64,000 bases of DNA, taken from contig NZ_JBGUAX010000007.1 of assembly GCF_041821065.1 (NCBI RefSeq), forward strand, positions 62,001 to 126,000. Reading direction: 5' to 3'. Positions 16,342 to 50,668 of the stretch are shown here, one piece after another. Both the position numbers and the translations under genes were made by a program. The DNA comes from Egicoccus sp. AB-alg2. Its GTDB lineage: Bacteria; Actinomycetota; Nitriliruptoria; Nitriliruptorales; Nitriliruptoraceae. The first letter of the stretch is position 1. Every line of letters begins with the position of its first letter. The notes below the pieces were generated by a model. It was not told where the DNA came from. It searched no databases and saw only the letters and a program-made list of their open reading frames with translations.

Positions 16342-16373
16342 GGAGGACCCCGCCGCTCGCGGCGGGGTCCTCC
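16342..16373 (+). terminator. intrinsic-type terminator of livJ
   Basis: Perfect 14-bp stem ggaggaccccgccg / cggcggggtcctcc with a CTCG loop, 25 bp after the livJ stop, followed by cgcgttt. It is separate from the hairpin array that begins 60 bp further on. Confidence 0.75.
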
Positions 16374-16432: not shown

Positions 16433-16561
16433 CGCCGCCCCCGGCTGGGAGAGGCCGGGGGCGGCGAAGCGCGCGGCTGGGAGAGGCCGGCGCGGGAGCG
16501 CGCGCGGTGTGGGAGAGCACCGTCGCGCGGGGCGCACCCGGTGGGGAGAGACACCGAGCGC
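16433..16561. repeat. array of four hairpins sharing a GGGAGAG loop
   Basis: Four consecutive stem-loops. A: 16433-16466, 13-bp perfect stem, loop TGGGAGAG. B: 16470-16494, 8 bp with one bulged base, loop TGGGAGAG. C: 16499-16529, 11 bp with one bulged T, loop TGGGAGAG. D: 16532-16561, 5+4 bp with an internal loop, loop GGGAGAGA. Stem sequences differ while each stays self-complementary, and the loop sequence is kept. The array starts 60 bp after the livJ terminator and ends 14 bp before the wrbA stop, so on the minus strand it is the wrbA 3' region with CUCUCCC loops. It may be tandem terminators, a REP-like element or a 3'-UTR RNA. Confidence 0.8.
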
Positions 16562-16575
16562 GGGTCTGGTGCGGA

Positions 16576-17190
16576 TCAGGCCTTGAGCTTGTCCGCGATG
16601 TGGTTGAAGTGAGCGGCGTACTTGAGGGCGATCTCGCGCTCGTCCTCGTCGATGCCCTCCTTGTCGTCGCCCATGGGGCTCCAGTGGGTCGGCCCGTACG
16701 GGCTGCCCCCGGTGCGGGTGCTGCCGACCTCCTCGGCCAGGCCGTAGCCGACCGGCACGATCACCATGCCGTGGTGATAGGCGAAGGTGGACAGCGACAG
16801 GATCGTCGACTCGTGCCCGCCGTGGATGGTGGCGGCGCCGGTGAAGAAGCCCACCGGCTTGCCGACGAGCCGCCCGGCCTGCCACAGGGGGCCGGTCTGG
16901 TCGATGAAGTTCTGCAGCTGCGCGGTGTTGGAGCCGTAGCGGGTGGGCGAACCGAGGATCAGTCCGTCGAACTCGGGCAGCTCGTCCACCGTTGCCTCGA
17001 CCACGTCGGACTGGGCCTGGTCGGCGGCGGCGACGCCCTCCATCTGCTTCACCTCGTCGGGCAGCAGCGGATCCGGCACCCGGCGCAGCAGCCCCTCGCC
17101 GCCGGCCTTGTCCACGCCCTGCGCCAGGATGCTGGCGAGCTCGTAGGTGGAGCCGTACATGGAGTGGTAGACGATCCCGATCTTGGCCAT
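16576..17190 (-). CDS. wrbA: NAD(P)H:quinone oxidoreductase, WrbA type
   Basis: 204 residues, usual length. A flavodoxin-like FMN protein that reduces quinones by two electrons and so limits semiquinone stress. Motifs: FMN phosphate loop YHSMYGSTYELA, GSPTRYGSNTAQLQNFIDQTG, and FFTGAATIHGGHESTILSL, which includes the WrbA insertion. The active-site-type His is in the HGGHE region. The ATG at 17190 is the family start (MAKIGIVYHS). It is transcribed alone; the hairpin array lies immediately downstream. Confidence 0.95.
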   Translation of the reverse strand: MAKIGIVYHSMYGSTYELASILAQGVDKAGGEGLLRRVPDPLLPDEVKQMEGVAAADQAQSDVVEATVDELPEFDGLILGSPTRYGSNTAQLQNFIDQTGPLWQAGRLVGKPVGFFTGAATIHGGHESTILSLSTFAYHHGMVIVPVGYGLAEEVGSTRTGGSPYGPTHWSPMGDDKEGIDEDEREIALKYAAHFNHIADKLKA

Positions 17191-50637: not shown

Positions 50638-50668
50638 CGGATCCGCCGGGGAGAGGACGGCGGATCCG
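50638..50668. repeat. single hairpin with GGGAGAG loop
   Basis: 11-bp perfect stem cggatccgccg / cggcggatccg with loop gggagagga. The loop matches the 16.4-16.6 kb array. As there, it lies downstream of a minus-strand gene (the 84-residue membrane protein, stop at 50788), so it may be that transcript's 3' structure. Confidence 0.7.

Follow-up and report, generated by a model that had tools for sequence, protein, structure and literature searches.

We have analysed a window of 64,000 nucleotides from Egicoccus sp. AB-alg2, in which a group of small hairpins lies between two convergent genes. On the minus strand, wrbA (16576-17190) is an open reading frame for a protein of the flavodoxin-like FMN reductase family (Pfam FMN_red, E 4e-16). 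The array starts 13 nt past its stop (16576), where it would form the 3′ UTR of the wrbA mRNA. On the plus strand, the gene for a livJ-like periplasmic binding protein ends in a terminator, a 15-bp inverted repeat at 16342-16373. The original prediction placed this terminator about 60 bp before the array. It is indeed complete by then, at a distance of 59 bp, and as a separate structure it does not explain the array.

Inverted repeats and folding confirm four stem-loops at 16433-16562, with the minus strand as the RNA sense. Hairpin u1 (16533-16562) has 11 pairs, two of them G-U pairs that form in the minus sense only, and the loop UCUCUCCC at 16544-16551. Hairpin u2 (16499-16529) has 11 pairs, one bulge and the loop CUCUCCCA at 16510-16517. 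The same loop is found at 16478-16485 in u3 (16469-16493; 8 pairs and a conserved 3′ bulge) and at 16446-16453 in u4 (16433-16466; 13 bp). Read on the plus strand, the loops are TGGGAGAG three times and GGGAGAGA in the fourth. The linker between u2 and u3 (16494-16498) is predicted to be single-stranded and provides a fifth CUCCC outside the hairpin loops; (C/A)UCCC is kept here in all four species of the genus that were aligned. The position of the hairpins and the pattern of three like loops and one different loop were therefore predicted correctly, as were four stems, but the predicted stem lengths of 13, 8, 11 and 9 bp differ slightly from the 13, 8, 11 and 11 pairs found from u4 to u1. 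The last hairpin, u4, is G+C-rich, a feature of intrinsic terminators, and resembles the end of a transcript. It is followed by GCUCUUUG in this genome, and a clear U tract is absent in the other three species (G001 to G003). The suggestion of a tandem terminator holds in so far as u4 looks terminator-like, but u1-u3 need not be terminators.

The minus-strand RNA is predicted to fold into four separate stem-loops with a minimum free energy of −90.5 kcal/mol (z = −7.13), a stability reached by none of 200 shuffled sequences. The plus-strand RNA is stable but less unusual (z = −3.86). The two strands also differ in their wobble pairs. At four places within the stems a G-U pair of the minus-strand RNA would become a mismatch of A and C in the plus-strand RNA, and there is no case of the reverse kind; the plus sense gains only one loop-closing U-G pair.

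Homologous loci were supplied by a WrbA search across 101 related genomes. The genus was represented by four genomes, the present one (G000) and G001 to G003, and in all four an array of three or four hairpins lies directly 3′ of wrbA. The convergent neighbor varies: G000 has the periplasmic binding protein gene, G002 and G003 have one of the DsrE family, and G001 has another gene. Since wrbA is constant across the genus and its convergent neighbor is not, we assign the array to wrbA. Among the related genomes outside the genus no array was found after wrbA, where there are ordinary terminator hairpins or no hairpin. Linkage, fold and the sense of the G-U pairs all bear out the proposal of a 3′-UTR RNA on the minus strand. 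Judged from sequence, the array is the minus-strand 3′ UTR of the wrbA mRNA, and is best read as a genus-specific 3′-UTR module.

The loops have been kept while the stems have changed. Manual assignment of the units across the four species gave 14 loops, and CUCCC is present in all 14. The stems of u1 and u2 differ between species at nearly every position, whereas those of u3 and u4 are nearly invariant. For the covariation analysis, single-hairpin MAFFT alignments were out of register, and the hairpin model (R1) was therefore seeded with a gapless subset and used to place 12 units. In this alignment 7 of 10 stem pairs have changed on both sides, with 20 double-changed cells compared with 6.8 in shuffled alignments. 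The covariation score was 0.462, compared with 0.133 in shuffles; none of 500 shuffles scored as high, and controls in which the register was slid gave scores of 0.13 or less. Because the alignment is fitted to the model, and four species are few, we take the covariation as leaning in favor of a selected structure. Exposure of the motif is marked in the four orthologous 3′ UTRs. CTCCC occurs 17 times, against a mean of 4.3 (maximum 11) after dinucleotide shuffling, and its mean unpaired probability is 0.98, compared with 0.39 for all pentamers. The claim that a fixed loop on changing but paired stems marks a selected structure thus gains support from homologous loci across the genus.

Searches of the genome with spaced motifs and with the hairpin model (which scored 150 of 1317 candidates) found no further array of this kind. 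The alternative of a REP-like element was rejected on this ground. The search for other units, which the original prediction had proposed, did reveal one further locus with the same loop motif, encoding a putative stand-alone ncRNA. The array has no match to a known Rfam family at the gathering score. Within the window, a long perfect hairpin at 50638-50668 (11 bp plus outer pairs, loop GGGAGAGGA) lies 3′ of a minus-strand gene and carries the same motif in the minus sense.

Two scans led to the ncRNA, one of the family with the hairpin model and one of the class for three TCTCCC motifs at intervals. Many matches of the hairpin model in other genomes sit within coding regions and look like chance, and the TCTCCC pattern also finds unrelated repeats in G003, G024, G038, G027 and other genomes. 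A near-identical dispersed repeat, TCTCCCCGGTGGCGGACGTGAGACCTCCCCGG, occurs in G003 (contig C1, at 1006594, 1121995, 3091000 and 3398626) and in related genomes (loci L150, L147 and L128), and is unrelated to the array. In the present genome the ncRNA is a single-copy locus on the plus strand of contig C3 at about 239,220-239,520 (about 1200-1530 of locus L166), and its relatives are found at loci L159-L181. The length of the ncRNA was estimated at about 300 nt from a promoter-like site common to the relatives, which comprises GTTGGACC and TGGTAnCGTA at −35/−10 spacing. At the other end is a terminator hairpin, GUCCCCCCGG-YYCUCCCA-CCGGGGGGAC followed by GCUUCGUU, whose sequence occurs once in most genomes. 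The loop and position of u4 resemble those of this terminator hairpin. Between promoter-like pair and terminator there is a hairpin with CUCCCUCUCCCA in its loop, and a long-range stem (CGCUCGG/CCGAGCG) encloses hairpins such as GGCGG-CUCUCCCA-CCGCC and GGAUG-CUCUCCC-CAUCC.

Each ncRNA carries CUCCC in 5-10 mostly unpaired places. The number and position of the CUCCC hairpins vary between genomes, and the motif stays. Across 23 ncRNAs there are 149 CTCCC, compared with 44 in shuffled sequences (maximum 61); their unpaired probability is 0.90, and in single-sequence folds most are wholly unpaired. The loop is conserved beyond the complement of the Shine-Dalgarno (SD) sequence, often with an A after it. 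An RNAalifold core of the ncRNA contains 23 pairs, of which six are double-changed, three of these in the long-range stem.

A model of 18 sequences (R2) finds the ncRNA in 27 of 35 Nitriliruptoraceae-type genomes, at one copy each; nine of the 27 carriers took no part in building the model. The relatives belong to Nitriliruptoraceae and unclassified Actinomycetota, within the class Nitriliruptoria. R2 has no match in the remaining 31 genomes of the class, and none was found in 285 Actinomycetota genomes outside the family under strict filters that weak relatives may escape. Rfam gives no match over the ncRNA loci at E ≤ 1, and at E ≤ 10 only sub-threshold chance matches; we found no published description in the open-licence literature. 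As far as these comparisons reach, the ncRNA is an undescribed family and a companion of the wrbA array.

The ncRNA is divergent from a gene for a MocR-type regulator (GntR and aminotransferase domains), and in several genomes a convergent dCMP-deaminase-like gene lies 3′ of it. Repeats of the form ATTGG ... TCCAAT ... CAGTCCAAT are conserved between the ncRNA and the start of the MocR-type gene (about 1130-1165 of L166), and are possibly a binding site of the regulator. In L169 (G007, contig C187) two short hairpins with CUCCCACCGGG lie past the ncRNA terminator and are apparently its partial duplications. A different structured stretch was seen in L109 (G032, contig C378) and L119 (G034, contig C61), where, in the RNA sense, the 260 nt leading up to position 1500 carry C-rich loops, a site GAACGGATGTTCG resembling an SOS box, and a terminator-like hairpin whose loop is CUCCACCA or CGCCACCA. 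It is divergent from recA in genus g11, as seen in L109, and is possibly an ncRNA linked to the SOS response.

CUCCC and CUCUCCC are complementary to GGGAG and GGGAGAG, respectively, in keeping with the original remark that the loops could pair with purine-rich ribosome binding sites (RBSs). The candidate target named there, GGGAGAG at 2286-2292 on the plus strand before the gene at 2301, is perfectly complementary to CUCUCCC over 7 nt, and the predicted duplex of loop and RBS has an energy of −14.3 kcal/mol. The G003 orthologue has exactly the same RBS stretch (GGGAGAGGAGCGCGC; CAGGGAGAGGAGCGCGC), whereas the DNA immediately 5′ of this stretch is not the same. A single candidate target kept in this way is weak evidence, since SD sites are retained in any case. 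A PTS-type gene on contig C1 of G000 is also led by GGGAGAG; it has no orthologue within the genus and so gave no test of conservation. With genes called roughly across 464 kb of G000, GGGAG is the third commonest pentamer of RBS regions, found in 55 of 406 genes, compared with 12 in a background twice as long. A similarly rough census of G003, in which 400 kb yielded fewer called genes, showed no enrichment of GGGAG (23 vs 25 in twice the length of background). The longer GGGAGA occurs in only 7 of the 406 RBS regions of G000, and is rare in G003 too.

The arrangement recalls several known RNAs. NfeR1 and its relatives carry identical anti-SD loops on unrelated stems (PMC10746234), and CcsR comprises tandem RNAs that lie 3′ of a coding gene, are released from its transcript by cleavage, and finish with a terminator (PMC10253847). 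Like the array, these cuckoo RNAs of alphaproteobacteria (αr14/NfeR1 and CcsR) have several hairpins in which one ultraconserved anti-SD loop is set on unrelated stems. Identical loops with differing stems are thus a cuckoo feature that the array possesses. Membership of the cuckoo RNAs is nevertheless ruled out by the loop motif, the upstream gene and the lack of an Rfam match above threshold. The cuckoo motif CCUCCUCCC is in none of the array loops, which have YCUCUCCCA (core CUCCC); the partner gene is wrbA (FMN_red) rather than the DUF1127 gene of the CcsR branch; a CcsR1 match, in another part of locus L004, scored 20 bits against a gathering score of 65; and the host belongs to Actinomycetota. 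In Listeria, LhrC binds a GGGAG site redundantly, by UCCC seeds located in a loop, in a linker and in the terminator loop (PMC4132741). The array has its seeds in the same three places, but LhrC has no sequence relation to it and is short, multicopy and endowed with three motifs. Within the same phylum, the 6C RNA of Actinobacteria (RF01066) has hairpins with C-rich loops, which are reported to bind multiple mRNAs (PMC9569102 and work cited there). Its loops contain at least six C, whereas the UCUCUCCC and CUCUCCCA of the array are not C runs, and the RF01066 covariance model has no match in this genome; the array is distinct from 6C RNA, as had been proposed. CsrB and RsmY are sponges with many hairpins and one loop motif, variable in copy number. 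In this they are like the array, but their motif is GGA rather than CUCCC.

The parallels with LhrC, NfeR1 and CcsR lead us to favor an anti-SD mechanism. The CUCCC loops shared by the wrbA tail and the ncRNA would be seeds for GGGAG-type RBSs, much as in the cuckoo/NfeR1 RNAs and LhrC, and to this we give a probability of about 0.5. Three or four tandem hairpins would expose CUCCC, the last of them, u4, ending the wrbA transcript in terminator-like fashion. The loops would act redundantly, and by pairing would keep several mRNAs from being translated. The tail of wrbA would work in trans, either as an RNA derived from the 3′ UTR or as part of the mRNA. Transcription, processing, targets and partner are inferred. 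Counted against the mechanism are the lack of GGGAG enrichment in G003, the rarity of GGGAGA, the restriction of the wrbA arrays to the genus, and the small number of species, four. More tentatively, the two RNAs may belong to a lineage network, in which a family ncRNA with its own promoter, divergent from the MocR-type gene, and the wrbA 3′ UTR of one genus use a single CUCCC-in-loop code to address one partner, be it a protein or a group of mRNAs, the tail modulating or extending the action of the ncRNA.

The main rival of the antisense reading is a protein sponge or recruitment platform, which we consider rather unlikely. Just as CsrB titrates CsrA, the ncRNA would titrate an RNA-binding protein that reads CUCCC in a hairpin loop, and the wrbA 3′ UTR would either be another array that the protein binds or a target under regulation. 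A fixed motif in hairpins of variable number and position (5-10 per ncRNA) is the pattern of a sponge, and both the conservation of the loop beyond the SD complement, often with the following A, and the rarity of GGGAGA in RBS regions are consistent with it. Against it, there is no candidate protein, and no bacterial protein is known to us to have specificity for a CUCCC hairpin.

Less probable still is that the array is an ordinary 3′ end, where terminator hairpins in tandem, and others protecting against exonucleases, stand between two convergent genes, the lineage happening to prefer pyrimidines in the loops of its terminators. The appearance of u4 agrees with this, as do related loops elsewhere in the genome, for example at 50638-50668 (UCCUCUCCC) and at 149369 of contig C7 (CUCUCCA). 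Since u4 and a few other hairpins are terminator-like with related loops, the spread of the motif may partly be a terminator habit of the lineage. Background counts of hairpins drew on 464 kb from G000 and 400 kb from G003. Yet in the G000 part a CUCCC or GGGAG loop is found in only 3 of 63 strong hairpins, one of them u4. Terminators need no invariant loop, the U tract is weak or missing, u1-u3 covary around a fixed loop, and the CUCCC of the linker and the ncRNA would be left unexplained. A function of the plus strand seems highly improbable. RNA from the livJ side would show UGGGAGAG loops, which would either imitate an SD sequence or serve to decoy the CUCUCCC ncRNA; RNA of that strand folds too, its loop is complementary to those of the ncRNA, and a duplex with the 16S anti-SD is predicted at −7.3 kcal/mol. 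Against this, the neighbor on that side differs between species while wrbA is constant, the G-U pairs favor the minus sense, the ncRNA elsewhere displays the CUCCC sense, and livJ has its own terminator. Least probable of all is pairing of the CUCCC loops with the RBS of wrbA itself. Its model is the similar architecture of icaR in S. aureus, where a UCCCC-type motif of the 3′ UTR pairs with the RBS of the same mRNA (PMC3868564). The wrbA RBS lacks GGGAG in all four species, and control in cis is disfavored for this reason.

Our verdict is that the array is a real, conserved RNA element akin to multi-loop RNAs of the anti-SD type. The same display of CUCUCCC in the wrbA tail and in the ncRNA suggests a common way of controlling other genes. 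The findings also suggest that tandem hairpins with anti-SD loops arose independently of the cuckoo RNAs of alphaproteobacteria. The ncRNA would add an undescribed RNA family to a poorly studied branch of Actinomycetota with few known regulatory RNAs. With one loop code in both the 3′ UTR of a coding gene and a stand-alone ncRNA, the joining of trans-acting regulons by 3′ UTRs becomes testable in this phylum.
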